Source: Candidatus Hydrogenedentota bacterium (lineage in GTDB: Bacteria > Hydrogenedentota > Hydrogenedentia > Hydrogenedentales > JAEUWI01). From it: 64,000 nt of DNA. The DNA is taken from contig JAHBVV010000002.1 in assembly GCA_019637335.1 (NCBI GenBank), positions 1 through 64,000 of the forward strand, in the 5' to 3' direction. Positions 4,505 to 39,714 of this stretch are shown in pieces. Below the pieces are notes generated by a model, which was not told where the DNA came from, did no database searches, and was given only the letters and a program-made list of their open reading frames with translations. Position numbers and translations under genes: made by a program. Every line of letters begins with the position of its first letter. Position 1 is the stretch's first letter.

Positions 4505-4798
4505 TCAGTCGTCCCCGGTCCGTCGCGCCCAGGCGTCCCAGGCGTCCCTGCTGTCCCTGCTGTCCCTGCTGTCCCTGCTGTCCCTGCTGTCCCTGGCGTC
4601 CCTGGCGTCCCTGGCGTCCCTGCCGTCCCTGGCGTCCCGGCGCGCTGCCGTCCCTGCCGTCCCTGGCGTCCCTGCCGTCCCTGGCGTCCCGGCGCGCTGC
4701 CGTCCCTGCCGTCCCTGCCGTCCCTGCCGTCCCTGCTGTCCCTGCCGTCCCTGCTGTCCCTGCCGTCCCTGCTGTCCCTGCCGTCCCTGCCGCACCTT
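4505..4798. repeat. 9-bp minisatellite, locus 2
   Basis: About 30 units of CCCTGNNGT, where NN is CT, GC or CC, fill the gap downstream of the DUF4838 gene and end just before the next gene on the opposite strand. A higher-order block containing CCCGGCGCGCTGCCGT occurs twice (near 4637 and 4687), showing internal duplication. It is the same unit as the array at 29.9 kb. Confidence 0.92.
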
Positions 4799-29861: not shown

Positions 29862-30317
29862 GGTCCCTGCTGTCCCTGCTGTCCCTGCTGTCCCTGCTGT
29901 CCCTGTAGTCCCTGCTGTCCCTGAAGTCCCTGAAGTCCCTGCTGTCCCTGTAGTCCCTGTAGTCCCTGCTGTCCCTGCTGTCCCTGTAGTCCCTGTAGTC
30001 CCTGTAGTCCCTGTAGTCCCTGTAGTCCCTAGTCCCTAGTCCCTGTAGTCCCTGTAGTCCCTGTAGTCCCTGTAGTCCCTGTAGTCCCTGTAGTCCCTGT
30101 AGTCCCTGTAGTCCCTGTAGTCCCTGCTGTCCCTGTAGTCCCTGTAGTCCCTGCTGTCCCTGTAGTCCCTGTAGTCCCTGCTGTCCCTGTAGTCCCTGCT
30201 GTCCCTGTAGTCCCTAGTCCCTGCTGTCCCTGTCGTCCCTGTAGTCCCTGTAGTCCCTGTAGTCCCTGTAGTCCCTGTAGTCCCTGCTGTCCCTGCTGTC
30301 CCTGTAGTCCCTAGTCC
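29862..30317. repeat. 9-bp minisatellite, locus 3
   Basis: About 50 units of CCCTGNNGT, where NN is mostly TA, with CT and some AA, occupy nearly the whole gap before the nitronate monooxygenase gene. A few units are shortened to CCCTAGT. The dominant dinucleotide differs from locus 2, so each array has homogenised separately. Confidence 0.93.
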
Positions 30318-30343
30318 CGCGGCCAACCTCCGGAGAACCGCCC

Positions 30344-31441
30344 ATGTGGAACCACACCCCCCTCACCCGCCTCCTCAACATCCGCTACCCCATCGTCCAG
30401 GGGCCCTTCGGCGGCGGCTCCTCCTCGCCCGAACTCGTCGCCGCCGTCTCCAACGCCGGCGGGCTCGGCTCCTTCGGCGCCATGAACCTCGCCCCACACG
30501 AAATCGGGCCCCTCTGCGACGATATCCGCGCCCGCACCGACAAACCCTTCGCCATCAACCTCTGGGTCAGCACCGAAGACCCGGACGCCCGCGACCCCAA
30601 CCTCCAGGCTCAATTCGATCGCGCCCTGCAGCCGCTCCTCCCGCTCTACCGCGAACTCGGCGTCGAACCGCCCCGGCCCGAACCGTTCGCGCCCCACGAC
30701 TTCACGGCCCAGGCGCAAGCCCTCCTCGACGCCGCGCCCCCCGTATTCAGTTTCATATACGGCGTGCCCGATCCCGACTTGCTCCGGCAATGCCGTGAAC
30801 GCAACATCATCACGGTCGGCGGAGCCACTACGGTCGACGAGGCCGTGGCACTCGACCGCGCCGGCGTCGACGCCATCGTCGCATCCGGTTTTGAAGCCGG
30901 CGGGCACCGCATGTCCTTCCTGCGATCCGCCGAAGATTCCCTCATGGGGCTCTTCGCGCTTGTGCCCCAGGTCGCCGACGCCGTCCGCGTCCCCGTGATC
31001 GCCGCCGGCGGCATCGCCGACGGCCGCGGGATCGTCGCCGCGCTCGCGCTCGGAGCCGCCGGCGTACAAATCGGAACCGCCTTCCTCGCCTGCGAAGAGT
31101 CCAACGCCGCCGGGCGCCACCGCCACGCCCTGCGCAGCGAACGCGCCTGGCACACCATCCTCACACGCGCCTTCTCCGGACGCCTCGCCCGCGGCATCCC
31201 CAACCGCGTCACCGCCGCCTACCGCGAAAACCCGGAACCCACCTTGCCCTATCCCATCCAGGCCCAGCTCATTCGCCCCCTCCGCGAAATCGCCCAGGCC
31301 CACGGCAACGAAGACTGCACCGCCCTCTGGTCCGGCCAATCCGCCCGCCTCATCCGAGACCGCCACGCCGAAACCCTACTCCAACGGCTCGTCGCCGAAG
31401 TAGACCGCCATTACGCGGCGCTCCAACAAGAAAGCCAATAA
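30344..31441 (+). CDS. Nitronate monooxygenase family flavoprotein
   Basis: A 365-residue FMN-dependent TIM-barrel protein of the nitronate monooxygenase/2-nitropropane dioxygenase family. It shows YPIVQGPFGGGSSSPELVAA and NAGGLGSFGA at the N terminus, FEAGGHR with the conserved His, and VIAAGGIADGRGI plus GAAGVQIGTAFLAC as phosphate-binding loops. It would detoxify nitronates, or act as a related flavin reductase. CTCCGGAGA lies a few bases upstream of the ATG, immediately after the minisatellite. The C-terminal 30 residues (DRHAETLLQRLVAEVDRHYA) form an added helix. Confidence 0.88.
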   Translation: MWNHTPLTRLLNIRYPIVQGPFGGGSSSPELVAAVSNAGGLGSFGAMNLAPHEIGPLCDDIRARTDKPFAINLWVSTEDPDARDPNLQAQFDRALQPLLPLYRELGVEPPRPEPFAPHDFTAQAQALLDAAPPVFSFIYGVPDPDLLRQCRERNIITVGGATTVDEAVALDRAGVDAIVASGFEAGGHRMSFLRSAEDSLMGLFALVPQVADAVRVPVIAAGGIADGRGIVAALALGAAGVQIGTAFLACEESNAAGRHRHALRSERAWHTILTRAFSGRLARGIPNRVTAAYRENPEPTLPYPIQAQLIRPLREIAQAHGNEDCTALWSGQSARLIRDRHAETLLQRLVAEVDRHYAALQQESQ

Positions 31442-32254
31442 AACAGCATCCTGTCCACAACACGTGACCACCATCTCCCGGCCCGCCCCATCCCCCCTCC
31501 GCCCACCATCACCCAGGTGTGCCACAGACAAGCCCCCAAGCCTCGCCCGTGCAATACCACCAGCCCAATCAAGGGACGTACCGCCGCACAAACGCCAAAC
31601 CCAACCCACAACACCCAACGTCCAAACCACACACCCAACCCCACCCACAAACCCCACCAAGCGGGGGTACGTCCCGGCCAGAGTTATCCCCCGTCCGCCC
31701 ACCATCACCCCAAGCGTGCCACGGACAAGCCCCCAAGCCTCGCCCGTGCAATACCCGACCCACACGTTCACGCCCACCACCGCAGTCCGGTATAAACTGT
31801 CAACTGTCAACTGTCAACTGTCAACTGGCAACTTTCAACTGTCAACTGTCAACTGTCAACTGTCAACTGGCAACGACCACCCCTCCCGTGCCACGCGATG
31901 GCGCCCCAGCGCCTTCGTGTGCCAGGAGCAACACCAACCCACCACCTCCATCAACACCCCACACGAGCGGCGCAAAGGAGGCTAAAAGTCCGCCGCAGGC
32001 GGGTTGGGCATCCTGCCCGACGCAACAATAGCCCCCGACACCACAACACCCCACCCTTCTCCAACCCTCTCAAACCCCCGTGCCTCGCGATTCCGCCGCA
32101 AGCGGACTCGTGTGCCAGGAGCAACACCAACCCAACACCGCCACAACCACCCCACACGGGCGGATCAACTCCCAGAAAGCCGGACATCCTGCATGACCCA
32201 CCCTTTCACCACCCCTGTGCCAACTGTCAACTGTCAACTGTCAACTGCCAACTG
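31442..32254. repeat. Repeat-packed gene-free region at the island edge
   Basis: No gene is visible. Contents: a roughly 60-bp direct repeat (31499-31557 and 31693-31754, sharing GACAAGCCCCCAAGCCTCGC); copy 2 of the 102-bp inverted-repeat element at 31573-31675 with perfect GGGACGTAC/GTACGTCCC ends; heptamer GTCAACT runs at 31795-31874 and 32222-32256; a roughly 51-bp direct repeat (31919-31969 and 32111-32162, starting GTGCCAGGAGCAACACCAAC); and a GC palindrome at 31989-32002. Confidence 0.85.
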
Positions 32255-32897
32255 TCACCCGTCTTCACCCTCCGCAGGCGGCCCACGGCCAGCGCGCGGA
32301 GGCGGCGGCCGAGTTGGGCTTCCAACCTGCTCGGGAAGCTGGCCGTGCCCAGGGGGCGGCCGGTATGCGTGTTCCGGCGGGAAGGCCTCGGCAAAATCGG
32401 GGTCGATTCCCTGCGCCAGCACGTCGCGCCAGCACGTCGCGCCAGCACGTCGCGCCAGCACATCGCGCCAGCGGGCCTCGACGCCGTGGGCGTCGCGCCG
32501 GCGGTCGAGGTCGTGCAGGCCGTCGTCCTTTCGCTCCCCCACATGCGCCGACGCGCTGTACCACGGATAGCGCCGCGCATCCGCACCATCTTCGCGCGGT
32601 CGGGGTTCTGCTCGACGTAGTGCATCGCCTAGCCGTAGTGCGGCTCGTCCAGCGCGCAGGAGTGGAACCGCCCCAGCCAGAGATGCCCGCTGCGCTTGTG
32701 GAATTGGTTGACATACTGGCTGTAGCGCTTGTGCCGTCGCCGAAGGTCCGCCGTAGGCGGATTCCTCATCAGGCAGTGGCCGTGGATACGGATCCGGTAC
32801 CGCCTCACGGCCGAAGGTCCGCCGGAGGCGGATAGCTGCCACTCTGGGTGATGCGGTGGGGCTGCCCCGCCACCACGATGCGAGCAAGTCTTGGCAT
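32255..32897 (-). pseudogene. Decayed REP-associated tyrosine transposase (RAYT), relic 1
   Basis: Read on the minus strand from ATG 32897, the start PRLARIVVAGQPHRITQSG is the RAYT N terminus (usual motif HHITQRG). A stop follows, then, in shifted frames, IRIHGHCLM, KRYSQYVNQFHKRSGHLW and GRFHSCALDEPHY. The C-terminal LEAQLGRRLRALAVG comes last. The segment that should hold the HUH metal motif (TNHVH after YCLM) is gone. Both internal gaps carry the palindrome TCCGCCNNNGGCGGA (32747-32761 and 32818-32832). At least one stop and several frameshifts make it inactive. A hairpin end lies at 32935-32955, upstream of its start. Confidence 0.8.
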
Positions 32898-32934
32898 GGG
32901 GAAGAGTATAGCGCGGATCCGGAGATTCGTTAAG

Positions 32935-32955
32935 AATAGGTGGCTGTCCCTTATT
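32935..32955 (+). mobile_element. RAYT element hairpin end H1
   Basis: AATAGG and CCTTATT (one bulged T) flank the loop TGGCTGTC, about 40 bases upstream of the relic-1 start codon. The same loop recurs at 33373-33392 and, with small changes, at 38343-38361 and 38746-38769. A weaker partial copy (GTAGCTGTCCCTAT) lies near 33044. Confidence 0.65.
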
Positions 32956-33077
32956 TCCTAGCCATACTGGAGAACACCACCACGGGGGTAAAGCAGCGTA
33001 AGCCTAAGGAATAGAACCTGATACGCTTATGTAAGCGCCATTCGTAGCTGTCCCTATTTCTTCCTACAGTTTTATAC

Positions 33078-33290
33078 CTAATTCTTTTTGCTTTCACACC
33101 TTTTCTTTTTGTCAACTCTATGGCTATTAAAATGCATAAAAAACTGATACGCCACTCCGTATAAAAAAGCACCAACGAATGCTGCTGCAACAAGGCCTAT
33201 TGCGTCCTCATTCAGTTCACCCAACAGCCCACCCGCTAAGACATATCCAGCAAGAAAACTCGCGCATAGCAGCAAAACAGTGCGATTCAT
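33078..33290 (-). CDS. Small two-helix membrane protein
   Basis: A 70-residue protein with two hydrophobic segments (VLLLCASFLAGYVLAGGLLG and IGLVAAAFVGAFLYGVAYQF) and a Lys/Arg-rich tail (HRVDKKKRCESKKN). I do not recognise the family. The ATG at 33290 was chosen because GGAGG lies 5 bases upstream of it; an in-frame ATG at 33338 lacks one. Base composition is visibly richer in AT than in core genes. The promoter in relic 2 (33566-33594) points toward it. Confidence 0.6.
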   Translation of the reverse strand: MNRTVLLLCASFLAGYVLAGGLLGELNEDAIGLVAAAFVGAFLYGVAYQFFMHFNSHRVDKKKRCESKKN

Positions 33291-33334
33291 CTCGGCCTCC
33301 GTCGTGCAGTACGACACAACCACTTTCTTGCACA

Positions 33335-33700
33335 TCAAGTCTGGTCTGATTCAGAATAGAAAAAGAGGACATAATGGGGACAGCCACCCATTTTCTCCGG
33401 ATGCCCCTTTTCCCTGCCGGACCCCCCCCTTGCCGGACGCACGGCAGAGAGGGCGCGCTGGCGATAGAGCCACCGTCCCCGTAAGCCCGAACGTCTCCTC
33501 GCGCCGTTCATAGGTGCTGCCTTTCTCGCAATTTGCGCCGCTTTGCGTAAAACTGCCGCAGGTGCAACATAGCATATGCCGGCCCGCACGTCAAAAGCCC
33601 CTGGCCGGTGGCCAGCGCGCGGAGGCGGCGGCCGAGTTGAGCTTCCAACCTGCTCACGAAGCTCTCCGTGCCCAGGACCCGAAAGCCGCCGCCCGAGGAT
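33335..33700 (-). mobile_element. RAYT element relic 2
   Basis: On the minus strand this starts with a RAYT C-terminal remnant (LGTESFVSRLEAQLGRRLRA, about 33600-33690) and continues with a conserved promoter (33566-33594) and an AGAAAGG-ATG start at 33511 opening a 58-codon frame (NGARRRSGLRGRW). It reaches the hairpin end at 33373-33392 (stem AATGGG/CCCATT, loop GACAGCCA, the complement of loop TGGCTGTC). The 5' end is lost. The remaining stretch up to 33884 carries only an unidentified fragment. Confidence 0.6.
33566..33594 (-). promoter_or_regulatory. Relic-borne promoter P2
   Basis: On the minus strand TTGACG (33594-33589), a 17-base spacer and TATGTT (33571-33566), with TG one base before the -10 hexamer. 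It is homologous to P3 at 36846 and P4 at 38533 and points at the small membrane protein gene ending at 33078. Confidence 0.55.
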
Positions 33701-33844
33701 ACGCCCACCTCCGCGCCCTCCAGGACCACCGCCAGCGGGGTCAACTTCGAGCCCGACCGGATCCAGATCGTCACCTCCTCCTTCTCCACAAAGCATTCCC
33801 GGTTCCGCCCCGCGTTCTTCCATGTATCTTCTCTTGCATTGTCC

Positions 33845-34422
33845 CTGGAGTCCACGCGTCGGACACGCATCCTTCATCTTTGTTTCAATGCACGCCAGAC
33901 TCCGTCACATCCTGCAAACGCACACTGTCCATGGCAATGCCATTGGGCTTGAGACCCGTCAATCGCACGCAAATAAAGATTGCGGGTCTCTCCTCATCCA
34001 GCTTGATGTCTTTCTGCGGAACAGAGCTCCCGCCCGAGCCGGTTTCGCTGACCACCCACGCGCCCGCGTCGCCGGCGCTATGGTCGGCGCGCCACGTCCT
34101 GACGTGCGATGCGCTCGACGCCAGTTCGCTCCAGGCGTCCGCATCCCGGACCCGCGTCGCCTCGTCCAGCTCATAGGAGCGGTCCATTGAAATCGCGCCA
34201 ACCATGATATCGAAGGACCACTCCCCCGCAAAATCCGCCGCTTCTTCCATCACCCGATAACGAATCGATGGCCGATAGATCTTTCCAGGCGTCTGGGCGA
34301 TGAACGAGCGGTACAGGCCTCCCTGGCCACCGGTCCTGTCGCTAAGAACCAGCTGCGCGCTACGCCGAACGTTCGCCCTGCCGGAATCAAGCGGCGGCGC
34401 CAACCAGTCATCCGAGAACGGC
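33845..34422. repeat. 578-bp near-identical direct repeat, copy 1
   Basis: This block equals 35311-35888 (offset 1466 bp) with only two differences noticed by eye: GCGGGTCTC versus GCGGTTCTC, and GAGCGGTCC versus GAGCGGCCC. It covers the 3' ends of the two paralogous genes and 40 bases beyond each stop. Confidence 0.93.
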
Positions 34423-35255
34423 CTTTCGTCAAACGTCACCCCCGCCGGCTCCAAAGACCAGCCGGTCCAGTTTGTCGTGATATTGTTTGTAAACGGGCCG
34501 AAGAAACTATCGAGCTGCTCGTGCTGATCGACCATGATATATGACGCATTCGTCGGCATCCCATTCTGAAAAGCGACCACGTAGTACGGTCTGCGAGGAA
34601 ACTCATCACATTCCCTTTTGGAGGTTGTGTAAAAAGGAATACCATCGTTGATACCGCGAAACTTGGTCGCCGGCCCACCGCGCTGCTTCCCGAACCGGCG
34701 GACGTAGACCTCGTCGTAGTCGCTTTTCTCGTGCCACCGAAAACTGTACTCACGGGAGGCTCCATTGTATGCTGCGCTCACGCTACCCACCGGTGGGAGT
34801 ATCCCCAAGCCCGTTTCCGTACCGCCAAGAACGATTTCGCCCTGATCCCCATAGAGTCTTATCGATCCTGCCGCCTTCCACCGCTCTCGGTAGAAATGAC
34901 GGTCTATACTTCGAGAACGAGGTGCAGAAGGCATCAGCATGACGTGAATCGGGTTGAGCAGTTCGTCGGCAAGCATATGGCTCACTGCGCTCGACGACAA
35001 TTCCGGATCAGTCTGAACTTGAACGCGAAGCCGCGCCTCCTCCTCGGTGTCGTTTGATAGATTGACGACGTGCAGTTCACCTCCCGATGCAGAGCTCAGA
35101 AAGGTCAGAACTGCGCTATTCTCCAGAATCGTATTGTTGTAGATCTCCGTAATTCGTGCGCTTCCAGTGCCACATAGCGGCATTAGGCAAAATACAAGTA
35201 TCGCTTTAAACTGTTGACGCCGACCCAGTATAAATCCCACATCCAAACGCTTCAT
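33885..35255 (-). CDS. Secreted protein with CBM-like domain, tandem paralogue A
   Basis: A 456-residue protein with a basic, hydrophobic N terminus (FKAILVFCLMPLCG) acting as signal or anchor. The middle has GGTETGLGILPPVGS and FRWHEKSDYDEVYVRR, reminiscent of a fibronectin-type strand pattern. The C-terminal 190 residues fit a jelly-roll carbohydrate-binding module (TNWTGWS; AQTPGKIYRPSIRYRVME; IAMDSVRLQDV). The 3' 538 bases plus 40 downstream bases match paralogue B almost perfectly, while the 5' part is strongly diverged. ATG 35255 has AGGAG 6 bases upstream. Ligand and role are unknown; the domain reading is inference. Confidence 0.7.
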   Translation of the reverse strand: MKRLDVGFILGRRQQFKAILVFCLMPLCGTGSARITEIYNNTILENSAVLTFLSSASGGELHVVNLSNDTEEEARLRVQVQTDPELSSSAVSHMLADELLNPIHVMLMPSAPRSRSIDRHFYRERWKAAGSIRLYGDQGEIVLGGTETGLGILPPVGSVSAAYNGASREYSFRWHEKSDYDEVYVRRFGKQRGGPATKFRGINDGIPFYTTSKRECDEFPRRPYYVVAFQNGMPTNASYIMVDQHEQLDSFFGPFTNNITTNWTGWSLEPAGVTFDERPFSDDWLAPPLDSGRANVRRSAQLVLSDRTGGQGGLYRSFIAQTPGKIYRPSIRYRVMEEAADFAGEWSFDIMVGAISMDRSYELDEATRVRDADAWSELASSASHVRTWRADHSAGDAGAWVVSETGSGGSSVPQKDIKLDEERPAIFICVRLTGLKPNGIAMDSVRLQDVTESGVH

Positions 35256-35310
35256 CACTGCTCCTCATCTGACGGTGTCGATCCGGCAGGGCAATTATCT
35301 CCCGCATGCT

Positions 35311-35888
35311 CTGGAGTCCACGCGTCGGACACGCATCCTTCATCTTTGTTTCAATGCACGCCAGACTCCGTCACATCCTGCAAACGCACACTGTCCATGG
35401 CAATGCCATTGGGCTTGAGACCCGTCAATCGCACGCAAATAAAGATTGCGGTTCTCTCCTCATCCAGCTTGATGTCTTTCTGCGGAACAGAGCTCCCGCC
35501 CGAGCCGGTTTCGCTGACCACCCACGCGCCCGCGTCGCCGGCGCTATGGTCGGCGCGCCACGTCCTGACGTGCGATGCGCTCGACGCCAGTTCGCTCCAG
35601 GCGTCCGCATCCCGGACCCGCGTCGCCTCGTCCAGCTCATAGGAGCGGCCCATTGAAATCGCGCCAACCATGATATCGAAGGACCACTCCCCCGCAAAAT
35701 CCGCCGCTTCTTCCATCACCCGATAACGAATCGATGGCCGATAGATCTTTCCAGGCGTCTGGGCGATGAACGAGCGGTACAGGCCTCCCTGGCCACCGGT
35801 CCTGTCGCTAAGAACCAGCTGCGCGCTACGCCGAACGTTCGCCCTGCCGGAATCAAGCGGCGGCGCCAACCAGTCATCCGAGAACGGC
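35311..35888. repeat. 578-bp near-identical direct repeat, copy 2
   Basis: Second copy of the block at 33845-34422. Homology of the flanking gene bodies drops abruptly at its upstream edge (35888), where codons for PFSDDW are shared and the next residues differ. Confidence 0.93.
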
Positions 35889-36715
35889 TTCTCCAAGAAA
35901 TTAACGGTATCGGCTTCCGTGGACCAGCCGGTCCAATTTGTCGTGATATTGTTGGTAAACGGACCAATGAAACCATCGACTTGCTCCCGCTGATCGACCA
36001 CGATGTACGACGCGTTCGTCGGCAACCCATTCCGAAAGCCGACCACGTAGTACGGTCGCCGTCTGAATTCACTATACTCCTTCTCGGTGCTGGTGTGGAA
36101 TGGAATAACATCGCCGAGGACGCGAGACTTGGCCGCCGGCCCGCCGCGCTGCTTCCCAAGGCGACGGACGTAAACGTGGGTATACTCACTTTTCTCATGC
36201 CAACGAAAGTTGTACTCGCGTCGCTGCTCATCATAGAAAGCACTGAGACTTCCCACGGGCGGCAATATGCCCAGGCCCGTCTCAGTACCTCCGATGACCA
36301 CCTCCCCAGGTCGCCCATAAATTGCGACTGCACCTTCCGTCCGCCATAGTCTTCGCAGAGCTTCGAAATCGTAATCGGGAGGAAAAGCAATTGTTGGCAT
36401 TAACTTTGAAGTCTCGGTGCCCAACAACTCGTCGGCGATTCTTCCGCCAATTGACTCAGGAGATTCCCCTTCCGACGTCGGAACAATAATTTCTTCAAAC
36501 ACATCGTCTGACAGGTTGACAACCGACAGCATGCCACCCTGTGCAGGTTCTTGGAGATCAAAAACCGCGCTTACATTCACGTCGATTCTGAAATAAGACC
36601 TCGTTGGAAATGCCAGAGCCGCGTCACAAGCGAAGAGACTGGTTATTGCAACCATCCAAACCGTAAACGCAAGAGGTCTCTGTAAGAGTCTGGTATTTCT
36701 TATTCGCTCGGGCAT
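35351..36715 (-). CDS. Secreted protein with CBM-like domain, tandem paralogue B
   Basis: A 454-residue paralogue of the downstream gene. The N terminus (LAFTVWMVAITSLFACDAALA) is a signal peptide. The first 150 residues share little with paralogue A. The middle (GGTETGLGILPPVGS, VYVRRLGKQRGGPAAK, GLPTNASYIVVDQ) is clearly related but diverged. The last 180 residues are practically identical because of the 578-bp repeat. ATG 36715 has AAGGAG 7 bases upstream. Promoter P3 in relic 3 lies about 130 bases upstream and could drive both paralogues. Function unknown. Confidence 0.72.
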   Translation of the reverse strand: MPERIRNTRLLQRPLAFTVWMVAITSLFACDAALAFPTRSYFRIDVNVSAVFDLQEPAQGGMLSVVNLSDDVFEEIIVPTSEGESPESIGGRIADELLGTETSKLMPTIAFPPDYDFEALRRLWRTEGAVAIYGRPGEVVIGGTETGLGILPPVGSLSAFYDEQRREYNFRWHEKSEYTHVYVRRLGKQRGGPAAKSRVLGDVIPFHTSTEKEYSEFRRRPYYVVGFRNGLPTNASYIVVDQREQVDGFIGPFTNNITTNWTGWSTEADTVNFLEKPFSDDWLAPPLDSGRANVRRSAQLVLSDRTGGQGGLYRSFIAQTPGKIYRPSIRYRVMEEAADFAGEWSFDIMVGAISMGRSYELDEATRVRDADAWSELASSASHVRTWRADHSAGDAGAWVVSETGSGGSSVPQKDIKLDEERTAIFICVRLTGLKPNGIAMDSVRLQDVTESGVH

Positions 36716-36789
36716 TTAAACTGCTCCTTACATACTAACAAACCGACGCCTGGATAACCCAATCCCTCGTCTGTTAACCTAGTAGTTAT

Positions 36790-37045
36790 CGATAGATTCA
36801 CCCTTTCTCGCTGATCCGCCGCTTGCCAAGAACTGCCATACCCGCAACGTAGCACAAGCGCGCCCGCCCGTCAATAGCCCCCCGGTGTACGCGCCCCGCC
36901 GATCGGGGCAAGGCATACTTCCCCATCAAAGAATGCCCGTGAACATGGATGCGCTGGACTCCCCCCCCCCTCCCGCTGCACGATAGGGTGCGGCGCCCCC
37001 GGCGCCACGATGCGTGCAAGCCTGGGGACGGCGAAAGTGTCGCGT
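36790..37045 (-). mobile_element. RAYT element relic 3
   Basis: In the 380-bp gap upstream of paralogue B, the minus strand reads VPRLARIVAPGAPHPIVQR (near 37032-36975) followed by RIHVHGHSLMGK, a RAYT N terminus with the same internal deletion as relic 1 and the start ATG changed to GTC. It continues into the conserved promoter P3 and AGCGAGAAAGG. A run of ten C residues (36961-36970) marks the deletion site. Confidence 0.65.
36846..36874 (-). promoter_or_regulatory. Relic-borne promoter P3
   Basis: TTGACG (36874-36869), a 17-base spacer and TACGTT (36851-36846) on the minus strand, about 130 bases upstream of the paralogue B start codon. Confidence 0.6.
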
Positions 37046-37096
37046 GAAGGCGGGCAGATATAGAGGACATTGTGTGCCGGAATCTCATACTCAAAG

Positions 37097-38479
37097 CTAC
37101 TGTGGCTTCACTTCTTCCCACTTCCTCGGCGTAAACTCCGATGCGCGGCGTTTGGCCTCTTCGATTTGGTCTGGGGCCATTTCCATTGCGAGAGAGTCTC
37201 GCTCTGACCCCGCGCGTGAAATCTTCGCGGTTGCCAGGTGGTACCACATGAACGCTTCAACAACATTTTTCTCAACGCCCTTCCCGACCCTCAACACGGA
37301 GGCAAGATTGAACTGCGCATACGCTTCACCCTGCTCCGCGGCAGCCCTAAACCATCTCGCAGCCTCCGTGGAATCCGTGGCAACACCTTCACCTACCGCG
37401 TGCATGTAACCGAGCTTTAGTTGCGCATCCGCGAGGCCGCGCACCGACGCTTCTCTAAACCATATAGCCGCCTCGGCGAGGCTCGGCTCAACACCCTCCC
37501 CATCACGCAACATGACGGCGAGAGAGTACTGCGCCTCCCGGACACCCTGCTCCGCCGCGGCTCTAAACCATCTGACCGCCTCGATGGAATCCTTGGCAAC
37601 CCCCTCCCCATTCCTGTGCATGATGCCAAAATTGAACTGTGCGTTCGCGTTTCCCTTCTCCGCGGCGAGGCCAATCCACCTCGCCGCCTCAGCCGTATCC
37701 TTGGAAACACCTTCTCCATAGAAATACATTGAACCAAGAAAAAGTTGCGCCTCCGCAAGCCCCTGATCAGCGGCGGCCCTATACCATCGGACAGCCTGCG
37801 CGCTATCCTTCTCAACCCCCTCGCCCTTCGCGTAATAGACACCCACGTTATACTGCGCAGTGACCATACCCTGTTCTGCGGCGCATTTGTACCACTTGAC
37901 AGCCTGCGCGTGATTCTTCTCGATGCCCTCTCCTGTCCCATATATAACACCCAGATTATACTGCGCACTAACCATACCCTGCTTAGCCGCATGCGTGTAC
38001 CATTTGATAGCCTCTGCGACATTTTGCTCAACACCGTCCCCAGTGCGATATATGGAGCCGAGCTCAAACTGCGCGTTTTTGTGCCCTTGCTCAGCAGCCG
38101 CCCTGTACCATCGGACAGCCTCTGCGAAGTCTTCGGGAACGTCCCACCCATTCTTATAACTGAGGCCAAGTAGAAACTGTGCTTCCACATCGCCCCGCCC
38201 AGCAGCTTCAAGCGTTCCCTCAATTCCGCCAAGCTTCGTGCTTTGGCTGTTAGTGTTGGAAACGCAGCCGGTCGCGCACAGTCCCAGCGCAATCAGGCTC
38301 ACAATCCATGACGACCACTGATACTTCGTGCCAGCACAATAATAGGGACATCCATGCCCTACAAGTTCCCACTTCGCACTTCCTGCCCCCAGGCATCGTC
38401 CGCCGCGCACCACAAAACCCGCGTCCCACCGCCACAGGCGTCGCCCTCGACCTTCCGAACGTCTCGTCGCGCCGTCCAT
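37097..38479 (-). CDS. Sel1-repeat lipoprotein with altered start
   Basis: Nine consecutive 36-residue Sel1 repeats (pattern AQYNLGVIYGTGEGIEKN then AVKWYKCAAEQG) form a solenoid, usually a protein-interaction scaffold. Before them lies a lipoprotein signal ending at lipobox LCATGC, but no normal start precedes it: the codon where ATG would be expected (38329, before KYQWSSWIVSLIALG) is ACG. The frame is open upstream through the RAYT relic to ATG 38479, which has AAAGGAGAGG 3 bases upstream; that start would put about 60 element-derived residues before the signal. GTG 38302 is a weaker alternative. The protein may be mislocalised or untranslated. Confidence 0.68.
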   Translation of the reverse strand: MDGATRRSEGRGRRLWRWDAGFVVRGGRCLGAGSAKWELVGHGCPYYCAGTKYQWSSWIVSLIALGLCATGCVSNTNSQSTKLGGIEGTLEAAGRGDVEAQFLLGLSYKNGWDVPEDFAEAVRWYRAAAEQGHKNAQFELGSIYRTGDGVEQNVAEAIKWYTHAAKQGMVSAQYNLGVIYGTGEGIEKNHAQAVKWYKCAAEQGMVTAQYNVGVYYAKGEGVEKDSAQAVRWYRAAADQGLAEAQLFLGSMYFYGEGVSKDTAEAARWIGLAAEKGNANAQFNFGIMHRNGEGVAKDSIEAVRWFRAAAEQGVREAQYSLAVMLRDGEGVEPSLAEAAIWFREASVRGLADAQLKLGYMHAVGEGVATDSTEAARWFRAAAEQGEAYAQFNLASVLRVGKGVEKNVVEAFMWYHLATAKISRAGSERDSLAMEMAPDQIEEAKRRASEFTPRKWEEVKPQ

Positions 38480-38769
38480 GAGCCTCTCCTTTCTCGCCAT
38501 TCCGCCGCATTCCCGAAAACTGCCATACCCGCAACCTAACACAAGCGCGCCGCCCGTCATTAGCCCGCCCCGGGCACGCGCCCCGCTGAACGCGACAAGG
38601 CTTTCATTGCGCCCAGGCGATACCCCTGGATACAGAGCCCCTGCGGTTCCGTCCCGGCCTCACGATAGGGCGCGGCGCTCCCGCCACGACGATACGAGCA
38701 ACTCTGGTTATCGAGTTAGCCCAACTCAGAGGCAGGTAGTAGTTCGTAATAGATGGCTGTTCCTATTAC
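38333..38769 (-). mobile_element. RAYT element relic 4, both hairpin ends present
   Basis: A 437-bp non-autonomous copy. Ends: hairpin TAGGG/CCCTA with loop ACATCCATG (38343-38361) and hairpin GTAATAG/CTATTAC with loop ATGGCTGTTC (38746-38769), inverted relative to each other. Inside, the minus strand reads RVARIVVAGAPRPIVRPGRN (degenerate RAYT N terminus), then promoter P4 and the AAAGGAGAGG-ATG at 38479. It sits directly upstream of the Sel1 lipoprotein gene. Confidence 0.7.
38533..38560 (-). promoter_or_regulatory. Relic-borne promoter P4
   Basis: ATGACG (38560-38555), a 16-base spacer and TAGGTT (38538-38533) on the minus strand. It aligns with P2 and P3 but is weaker. It is 54 bases upstream of the ATG at 38479. 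Confidence 0.45.
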
Positions 38770-38781
38770 TCCTCCTTTTGA

Positions 38782-39513
38782 TTAATTGATGTCGAAAAAA
38801 CCGCCTAACTCCAGTGCATTCAGATATATAGAAACACTAAGCTCTCGCCTGGGAAGCTCCCCTTCCTCGATCATCGCGTGATTTGCTGCCTGCAACTTCG
38901 CTAGCTCGTCCCGACTCAGGTTTCTAAGTCCTGGAATCGGAGTCGCGATCTGGCCAACCAGGGTAGGTTTAAGTGGATCGAAATGTTCGCCATTGACACT
39001 ATCTAATTTGCCCAAAATTCTCTTGCAATAGTCAAAATACAAATCTACCTCCAATCGTAAGCCGGCCAATTCCCAGCTCAAGAGCAGCCCCACTATGTCA
39101 TTAGGGTCCTTAGCGAGCCGATCGTCCGCTAACGCCGAAATTAAATCGAATTCCCCCCTATTCCACCTCTCGGTCAAATGATCAGATTGTGGCGTGGGCT
39201 CGGGGAAACCGCTCTCACTCAACTCGAATAGCCTTTGAAGAGATTCTGCTTTCTCCTCTACACTATAGTCATATTTGGCTAGTAATTTTGATAAATCTGG
39301 CGCATCAACAATCGCAATGTTTTGACCGGCCTGCGAATCACGAGGGCCAGAATCTGGTACTGACGTCTCGACTGCGTGGCCAGGCGCCGTTGAATCAGAG
39401 CTCGGTACGCGCACATCGGCTGTATCCGACCTGAAATACGGAATTGTTCCGAGCGCGATCAGCAACAAGAGGAACGCCAGCCCGATACCCAACTTCTTGT
39501 TTCTTCTATTCAT
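38782..39513 (-). CDS. Membrane-anchored protein of unknown function
   Basis: A 243-residue protein with a basic N terminus and one hydrophobic helix (KKLGIGLAFLLLLIALGTIPYF), followed by a Ser/Pro-rich linker and an acidic helical domain (DLSKLLAKYDYSVEEKAESL onward). The start at 39513 has AGAGGAA about 8 bases upstream; an ATG at 39558 is less likely. Codon and base composition are richer in AT than in flanking core genes, suggesting recent acquisition. I do not recognise the family. Confidence 0.62.
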   Translation of the reverse strand: MNRRNKKLGIGLAFLLLLIALGTIPYFRSDTADVRVPSSDSTAPGHAVETSVPDSGPRDSQAGQNIAIVDAPDLSKLLAKYDYSVEEKAESLQRLFELSESGFPEPTPQSDHLTERWNRGEFDLISALADDRLAKDPNDIVGLLLSWELAGLRLEVDLYFDYCKRILGKLDSVNGEHFDPLKPTLVGQIATPIPGLRNLSRDELAKLQAANHAMIEEGELPRRELSVSIYLNALELGGFFDIN

Positions 39514-39579
39514 TGTGGAAATTCCTCTGCCCAGTCTAGTAGTTCGCATCCGGGCCATGCTAATGCGATCAAGCGCATC

Positions 39580-39714
39580 CTACCAAACCATCTCCCGTAC
39601 GTCATATAAAGAAATTCCGCCAATAACGACACAGAGCAGGGCAAACCCAGAGTCTAACAACAATGCGCGAGCGCCGAACTCTCTGGGCAAAATAGGTCCA
39701 GACAACGATTCCAT
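39580..39714 (-). CDS. Possible 44-residue single-helix membrane peptide
   Basis: A short frame reading ESLSGPILPREFGARALLLD and then FALLCVVIGGISLYDVREMVW, with one hydrophobic segment. GGGGAGG abuts the ATG directly, too close for an efficient site, so this may be the 3' remnant of a longer membrane-protein gene. It lies between the propeller protein and the membrane-anchored protein on the same strand. Confidence 0.3.
   Translation of the reverse strand: MESLSGPILPREFGARALLLDSGFALLCVVIGGISLYDVREMVW

Follow-up and report, generated by a model that had tools for sequence, protein, structure and literature searches.

The genome of a Candidatus Hydrogenedentota bacterium (assembly GCA_019637335.1) contains exactly eight copies of a segment of ~65 base pairs (bp), here called the core, that consists of TTGACG, a 17-nucleotide (nt) spacer and TANGTT, with an invariant TG ahead of the second hexamer. 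Three of these copies are located in the stretch that we analyzed (hereafter, the window; positions 1 to 64,000 of contig JAHBVV010000002.1), next to remnants of genes for RAYTs (transposases associated with repetitive extragenic palindromic (REP) sequences) and upstream of minus-strand genes. Judging from its geometry, position and pattern of conservation, we consider the core to be, more likely than not, a portable promoter of the sigma-70 type that is borne by a mobile element.

A family of eight homologous segments

The first-pass annotation of the window had noted three alignable promoter-like motifs, each followed by GAGAAAGG and aimed at the next minus-strand gene, and all three were recovered with the same coordinates, strand, trailing sequence and direction (win33, win36 and win38; Table 1). 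When the tail at 36.8 kb was compared by BLAST with its own genome (7.16 Mb in 55 contigs), the 38.5-kb copy was retrieved at 1.5e-18, along with five more copies, C10, two on C1 (C1a and C1b), C18 and C3; the 38.5-kb element, in turn, retrieved the 33.5-kb copy at 2.4e-10. A profile of all eight cores detected each of them with E <= 2.3e-17, and the next candidate only with 0.56; one further BLAST match, C6:184895, is short and was dismissed as spurious. By these sequence comparisons, the three window segments are homologous, as first annotated, and not chance resemblances.

The core was not detected in 59 relatives by BLAST (E <= 0.01), save for one marginal 22-bp match, or in three congeners by profile search. 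An exact-pattern search of ~85,000 GTDB species genomes yielded no match either, in a collection from which the source genome is possibly absent and with a pattern that leaves out one of the eight copies, win38.

Promoter likeness and conservation of the core

The pattern TTGACR-N17-TANNNT occurs at 175 sites genome-wide compared to 23 for the reversed control (~7.6-fold enrichment) and, accordingly, is a meaningful class in this genome. When scored with an approximate E. coli-type matrix, seven cores reach 10.7-13.7, a level met by 5-33 of the 127,948 window positions; win33 has the top score among the three window cores. The assumption that all three window copies are good promoters is not supported in the case of win38 (38560), a degraded copy that scores 5.2 and is not near the consensus. 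In six of the eight copies, the core is the highest promoter-like site between -200 and +330, and all eight carry TG one base before the -10 hexamer.

Identity between cores is 0.68-0.97 over all 28 pairs, and the flanks in most pairs are near the level of shuffled sequences (mean 0.41, maximum 0.65). The exceptions to this decay are win33 and C3 (subfamily A), which are uniformly similar, and the copies of subfamily B, which are partly similar downstream; the region between the core and the hairpin that follows it is more diverged than the core itself. A comparison set beforehand, on whether the hexamers are better conserved than the rest, came out as the first-pass annotation had anticipated: 10 of the 12 hexamer positions are invariant against 27 of the other 53 (p = 0.039), and with the TG included in the promoter mask, the counts are 12/14 against 25/51 (Fisher p = 0.013), a modest difference given that it comes from only eight related sequences. 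The true placement of the mask ranks best of 37 placements. Subfamilies A and B show fixed differences at 0 of 14 mask positions, at 5 of the 15 other spacer positions and at 7 of 30 positions downstream; the most variable column of the entire core is position 3 of the -10 hexamer. The conservation pattern is suggestive of maintenance of the core by selection.

RAYT elements and their derivatives

RAYT elements are intact at two places in the genome, C34 and C1:181k, where they have Y1_Tnp domains above the Pfam cut-off and inverted AATAGGGACAGCCACCTATT-type hairpins at both ends. Each consists of a hairpin (AATAGGGACAGCCACCTATT), its own near-perfect promoter TTGACA-17-TATACT (L126 about 4724-4780 for C34, and L127 about 2785-2842 for C1:181k), a start codon that follows the -10 hexamer at a distance of 6-7 nt, and the coding sequence, with its stop codon within the right hairpin or immediately next to it. 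The closeness of the start codon to the -10 hexamer suggests that the RAYT mRNA is leaderless. Neither of the two intact elements contains the core.

The RAYT relics in the window are fragments of the same protein, real but small. In the core-bearing derivatives, the RAYT debris is followed by the core, and the right hairpin comes after a further 100-150 nt that are less well conserved. RAYT debris and/or a REP-like hairpin accompany the core in 6/8 copies: the RAYT C-terminus is kept in win33 and C3, N-terminal pieces in win36, win38 and C1b (subfamily B), and an internal piece in C10. Both element ends are traceable only in win38 and, in degraded form, in C1b; the remaining copies are truncated, and no right hairpin is recognizable in win36. 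C18 and C1a consist of the core alone, with unrelated sequence on both sides and neither RAYT nor hairpin, so that the conserved unit is the core and not the RAYT relic. Neither the coding sequence nor the promoter of the RAYT element yields a convincing match to the core, which is therefore treated here as a passenger segment. Specifically, an apparent GRxHxxxxD..YV reading that would make the core RAYT coding sequence finds no convincing counterpart there in DNA or protein, and the likeness of the core to a displaced copy of the RAYT promoter is no better than that of shuffled sequences. The earlier identification of RAYT relics as the carrier thus stands as far as the small RAYT pieces beside the three window cores are concerned, but does not extend to the core itself or to the two RAYT-free copies.

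These observations bear on an alternative that we regard as unlikely but still appreciable, namely, that the core is nothing but the 3'-terminal region of a RAYT-type element, kept through common descent or for the needs of the transposase, with the promoter likeness being incidental. The company of RAYT remnants or hairpins in six copies, the uniform conservation of the closest pair (win33/C3) along the whole element and the lack of a gene behind the C3 core would all be expected under this explanation. However, the intact RAYTs, which finish at the right hairpin without a core, imply that these elements do not require it; furthermore, C18 and C1a retain the core without RAYT and hairpin, and the highest conservation falls on the promoter positions.

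Two further features of the RAYT complement were observed. The centre of the REP-like hairpin AATAGGTGGCTGTCCCTATT has 12 exact sites in the genome, and solo hairpins of this kind lie away from RAYTs and cores, for example, at C2:234760, C16:120113 and C24:109842. Three RAYT copies (the window region at 32256, L133 about 1610-1710, and L129 about 700-660 on the minus strand) stop matching the intact element at one and the same codon (query position 743), beyond which they run into a 7-bp minisatellite, (TTGACAG)n, with a 3' end unlike the hairpin.

Genes downstream of the core

A co-directional open reading frame (ORF), mostly of low GC content, follows the core in seven of the eight copies. 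Outside the window, the C10 core precedes a 296-amino acid (aa) protein with a transmembrane start; C1a, a 463-aa paralog of the 454-aa protein encoded behind win36; C1b, a 316-aa protein with a weak carboxypeptidase-regulatory-like match; and C18, a 276-aa protein with a signal-like start and then a Sel1 gene (signal regions were called by eye). The core thus stands ahead of non-homologous families, including Sel1, carboxypeptidase-regulatory-like, the 454-aa paralog and several orphans, that is, genes of at least four unrelated kinds on several contigs. The GC content of these genes is 45-59%, compared to 65% for the window and 62-65% for the elements. The distance from the right hairpin to the start codon is just 24-55 nt in win33, win38, C10 and C1b, which leaves scant room for any other promoter, so that the upstream control DNA must be largely element-derived.

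The paralog family to which the win36 and C1a genes belong has four members in this genome and one in a sister genome, also of Candidatus Hydrogenedentota (G003); the C34 and G003 members lack the core. Between win36 and C1a, DNA identity is 62% for the genes and 88% for the cores. The simplest reading of this difference is that the core was acquired separately at the two loci, the alternative being an inherited core under strong constraint.

An explanation in which the core is the native promoter or operator of co-regulated genes for exported proteins, with RAYTs inserted alongside later, appears improbable to us. It would account for products that are alike in kind (signal-like N-terminus, lipoprotein, Sel1, carboxypeptidase-regulatory-like) and for the presence of the core at two members of one paralog family. 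Nevertheless, all full copies have the hairpin downstream of the core, whereas an upstream insertion would be expected to place it between core and RAYT remnant. The coreless paralogs at C34 and in G003 also speak against this explanation, as does the identity of the win36 and C1a cores, which is far above that of the genes.

A putative mobile promoter

The occurrence of eight copies, mostly on RAYT wrecks and nearly always ahead of unrelated accessory genes with probably exported products, suggests that the core is probably a mobile promoter, which would be of a known kind in a new carrier, a RAYT-type element. In the scenario that we envisage, a RAYT (IS200-like) lineage would have carried the ~65-bp segment between the transposase remnant and the right-end REP-like hairpin, such that TTGACG, the 17-nt spacer with TG plus one base at its end, and TANGTT read outward through the right end of the element. 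Deletion derivatives, twice reduced to the bare core, would have landed directly upstream of accessory, lower-GC genes, where the core would supply or replace the promoter. RNA polymerase would start a few bases after TANGTT and pass through the hairpin into a gene 100-250 nt away. Transcription from the core, selection for expression and the DNA transaction that moved the core are what we infer from this arrangement. More tentatively, and rather as a possibility than as our expectation, a RAYT-borne mobile promoter of host-like base composition might have been placed repeatedly before low-GC genes for exported proteins that were probably acquired horizontally; in this way, foreign genes would have been wired into a dispersed regulon, and the promoter would now persist at two loci without its carrier.

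Besides the small sample behind the conservation test, several observations weigh against the proposal of a mobile promoter. The blocks GTTGC and GCGGCG, outside the promoter positions, are invariant as well, which a simple promoter does not account for. In the closest pair, win33/C3, the flanks (0.85-0.92) are as similar as the core (0.91), with no excess of core conservation, and C3 keeps intact hexamers with no recognizable gene behind its core. In the win38 copy, the -35 hexamer is poor, the spacer is 16 nt long and the score is low, and a better-scoring site lies beside the right hairpin; the win36 core is slightly outscored by a site that overlaps the ribosome-binding region of the gene itself. 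Finally, scanning the 8-kb region for plain consensus matches gave three sites against 3.5 expected from shuffles, so that consensus matching by itself would not have carried the promoter claim. With regard to the original suggestion that the element has been kept as a portable promoter, portability gains support from the unrelated gene families, the several contigs and the two RAYT-free copies, but retention for the sake of a gene in every copy does not, in view of C3 and of the win33/C3 pair.

It is highly improbable that the element encodes a small RNA or a structured leader, with the promoter followed by a transcript of ~150 nt and the right hairpin serving as terminator. Although a hairpin of 5-8 pairs closes several copies and a bare promoter does not explain the conserved +1..+35 block, there is no Rfam match, the consensus fold is weak with covariation almost nil, the hairpins fold no better than shuffles, and the sequence from core to hairpin diverges more than the core; a known structured RNA was rejected for the first two of these reasons. 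Two coding interpretations were also discarded: a leader peptide after the core (MAVLGKRR..), the start codon of which is gone in half of the copies, and a conserved ORF opened by GAGAAAGG-ATG, the frame of which is shifted by 2 nt between the subfamilies. Chance promoter-like matches in relic DNA, to which the weakness of win38 and the unremarkable 8-kb scan might be attributed, are scarcely credible in the face of eight homologous copies, non-random conservation at promoter positions and genome-wide enrichment of the geometry.

Organization of the window island

Table 1. Cores, element remnants and associated genes in the window (all on the minus strand; coordinates are those of the 64,000-nt stretch)
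Feature	Coordinates	Strand	Details
Core win33 (subfamily A)	33530..33600	-	TTGACG 33594-33589, 17 nt, TATGTT 33571-33566; TG one base upstream of -10
Core win36 (subfamily B)	36812..36880	-	TTGACG-17-TACGTT 36874-36846
Core win38 (subfamily B), degraded	38496..38566	-	ATGACG-16-TAGGTT 38560-38533
RAYT C-terminal remnant, joined directly to win33 core	33603..33676	-	..FVSRLEAQLGRRLRALATG
RAYT N-terminal remnant, upstream of win36 core	36974..37044	-	PRLARIVAPGAPHPIVQR
RAYT N-terminal remnant, upstream of win38 core	38654..38707	-	RVARIVVAGAPRPIV
Right-end hairpin, win33 element	33373..33392	-	AATGGGTGGCTGTCCCCATT on minus strand
Right-end hairpin, win38 element	38341..38361	-	TAGGGCATGGATGTCCCTATT on minus strand
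Left-end hairpin, win38 element	38748..38767	-	AATAGGAACAGCCATCTATT on minus strand
Near full-length RAYT relic without core	32256..32955	-	Left hairpin; own decayed promoter TTAACG-17-TATACT
Gene downstream of win33	33078..33338	-	86-aa small membrane protein; GC 45%
Gene downstream of win36	35351..36715	-	454-aa protein, signal-like N-terminus; first of paralog pair; GC 56%
Second paralog, co-directional	33885..35258	-	Separated from the first by 92 nt; near-identity to it in the 3' part
Gene downstream of win38	37097..38302	-	Sel1-repeat lipoprotein, 9 Sel1 repeats; GTG start ~40 nt past right hairpin

The low-GC island (window 31500-39600) has a left neighborhood (28.3-31.4 kb) that is kept in the genome G001 and a right one (39.7-45.3 kb) that is kept in G003. 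None of the island genes was found beside the flanking genes in congeners, and hence there is no clean before/after pair for an empty-site test. The tandem paralogs (33845-34440 and 35311-35906) are nearly identical over the last ~185 codons and only moderately similar before, the mark of recent gene conversion or partial duplication. In the win38 element, an ATG after GAGAAAGG is in frame with the Sel1 lipoprotein (38560-37097) and represents a possible alternative start that would add ~70 residues before the lipobox. Between two genes, a 9-bp unit is repeated in tandem over about 350 bp (30003-30348).

Comparison with known mobile promoters and RAYT systems

Sigma-70-like promoters are known in Correia repeat enclosed elements and other miniature inverted-repeat transposable elements (MITEs) (reviewed in PMC10969869). 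Like these, the family described here derives from a mobile element, is short and multi-copy, often sits immediately in front of genes and carries an outward sigma-70-like promoter, in our case a predicted one. It differs in that the carrier is RAYT/IS200-like, with REP-like hairpins rather than the terminal inverted repeats of a typical MITE, and in that there are only eight copies, two of them without any carrier, and a promoter predicted from sequence. Putative mobile promoters, as described by Matus-Garcia et al. 2012 and van Passel et al. 2014 in the account given by PMC8049555, are similar in that one promoter sequence precedes non-homologous genes in a single genome. The difference is that six of the eight copies in the present family still show what is likely to be their carrier, a RAYT relic plus hairpin. 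The core is such a near-identical segment before non-homologous genes, and its promoter positions are conserved above the rest of the repeat, if modestly. It appears to work like MITE-borne promoters and to fit the notion of a mobile promoter; given that its activity is a prediction and that complete ends are seen in only two copies, we do not claim strict membership in either class.

RAYT genes flanked by two inverted REPs (PMC2817692) and REPINs (PMC3116915) are the closest systems of this type, and RAYTs have been described as single-copy (PMC3116915). The intact elements on C34 and at C1:181k conform to this scheme, being Y1 transposase genes between inverted AATAGGGACAGCCACCTATT-type hairpins in a genome with dispersed solo hairpins. 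Unlike the described systems, this genome holds several intact or relic copies, and one lineage bears the promoter core, which is not a typical RAYT part. A promoter role of REPINs has so far been a matter of speculation, and the benefit of RAYTs and their repeats to the host is an open question (PMC8049555). If our interpretation is correct, a RAYT-lineage element that spreads a usable promoter to incoming genes would represent a concrete benefit of this kind and would reveal, in a poorly known phylum, a route by which low-GC foreign genes gain a host-type promoter.

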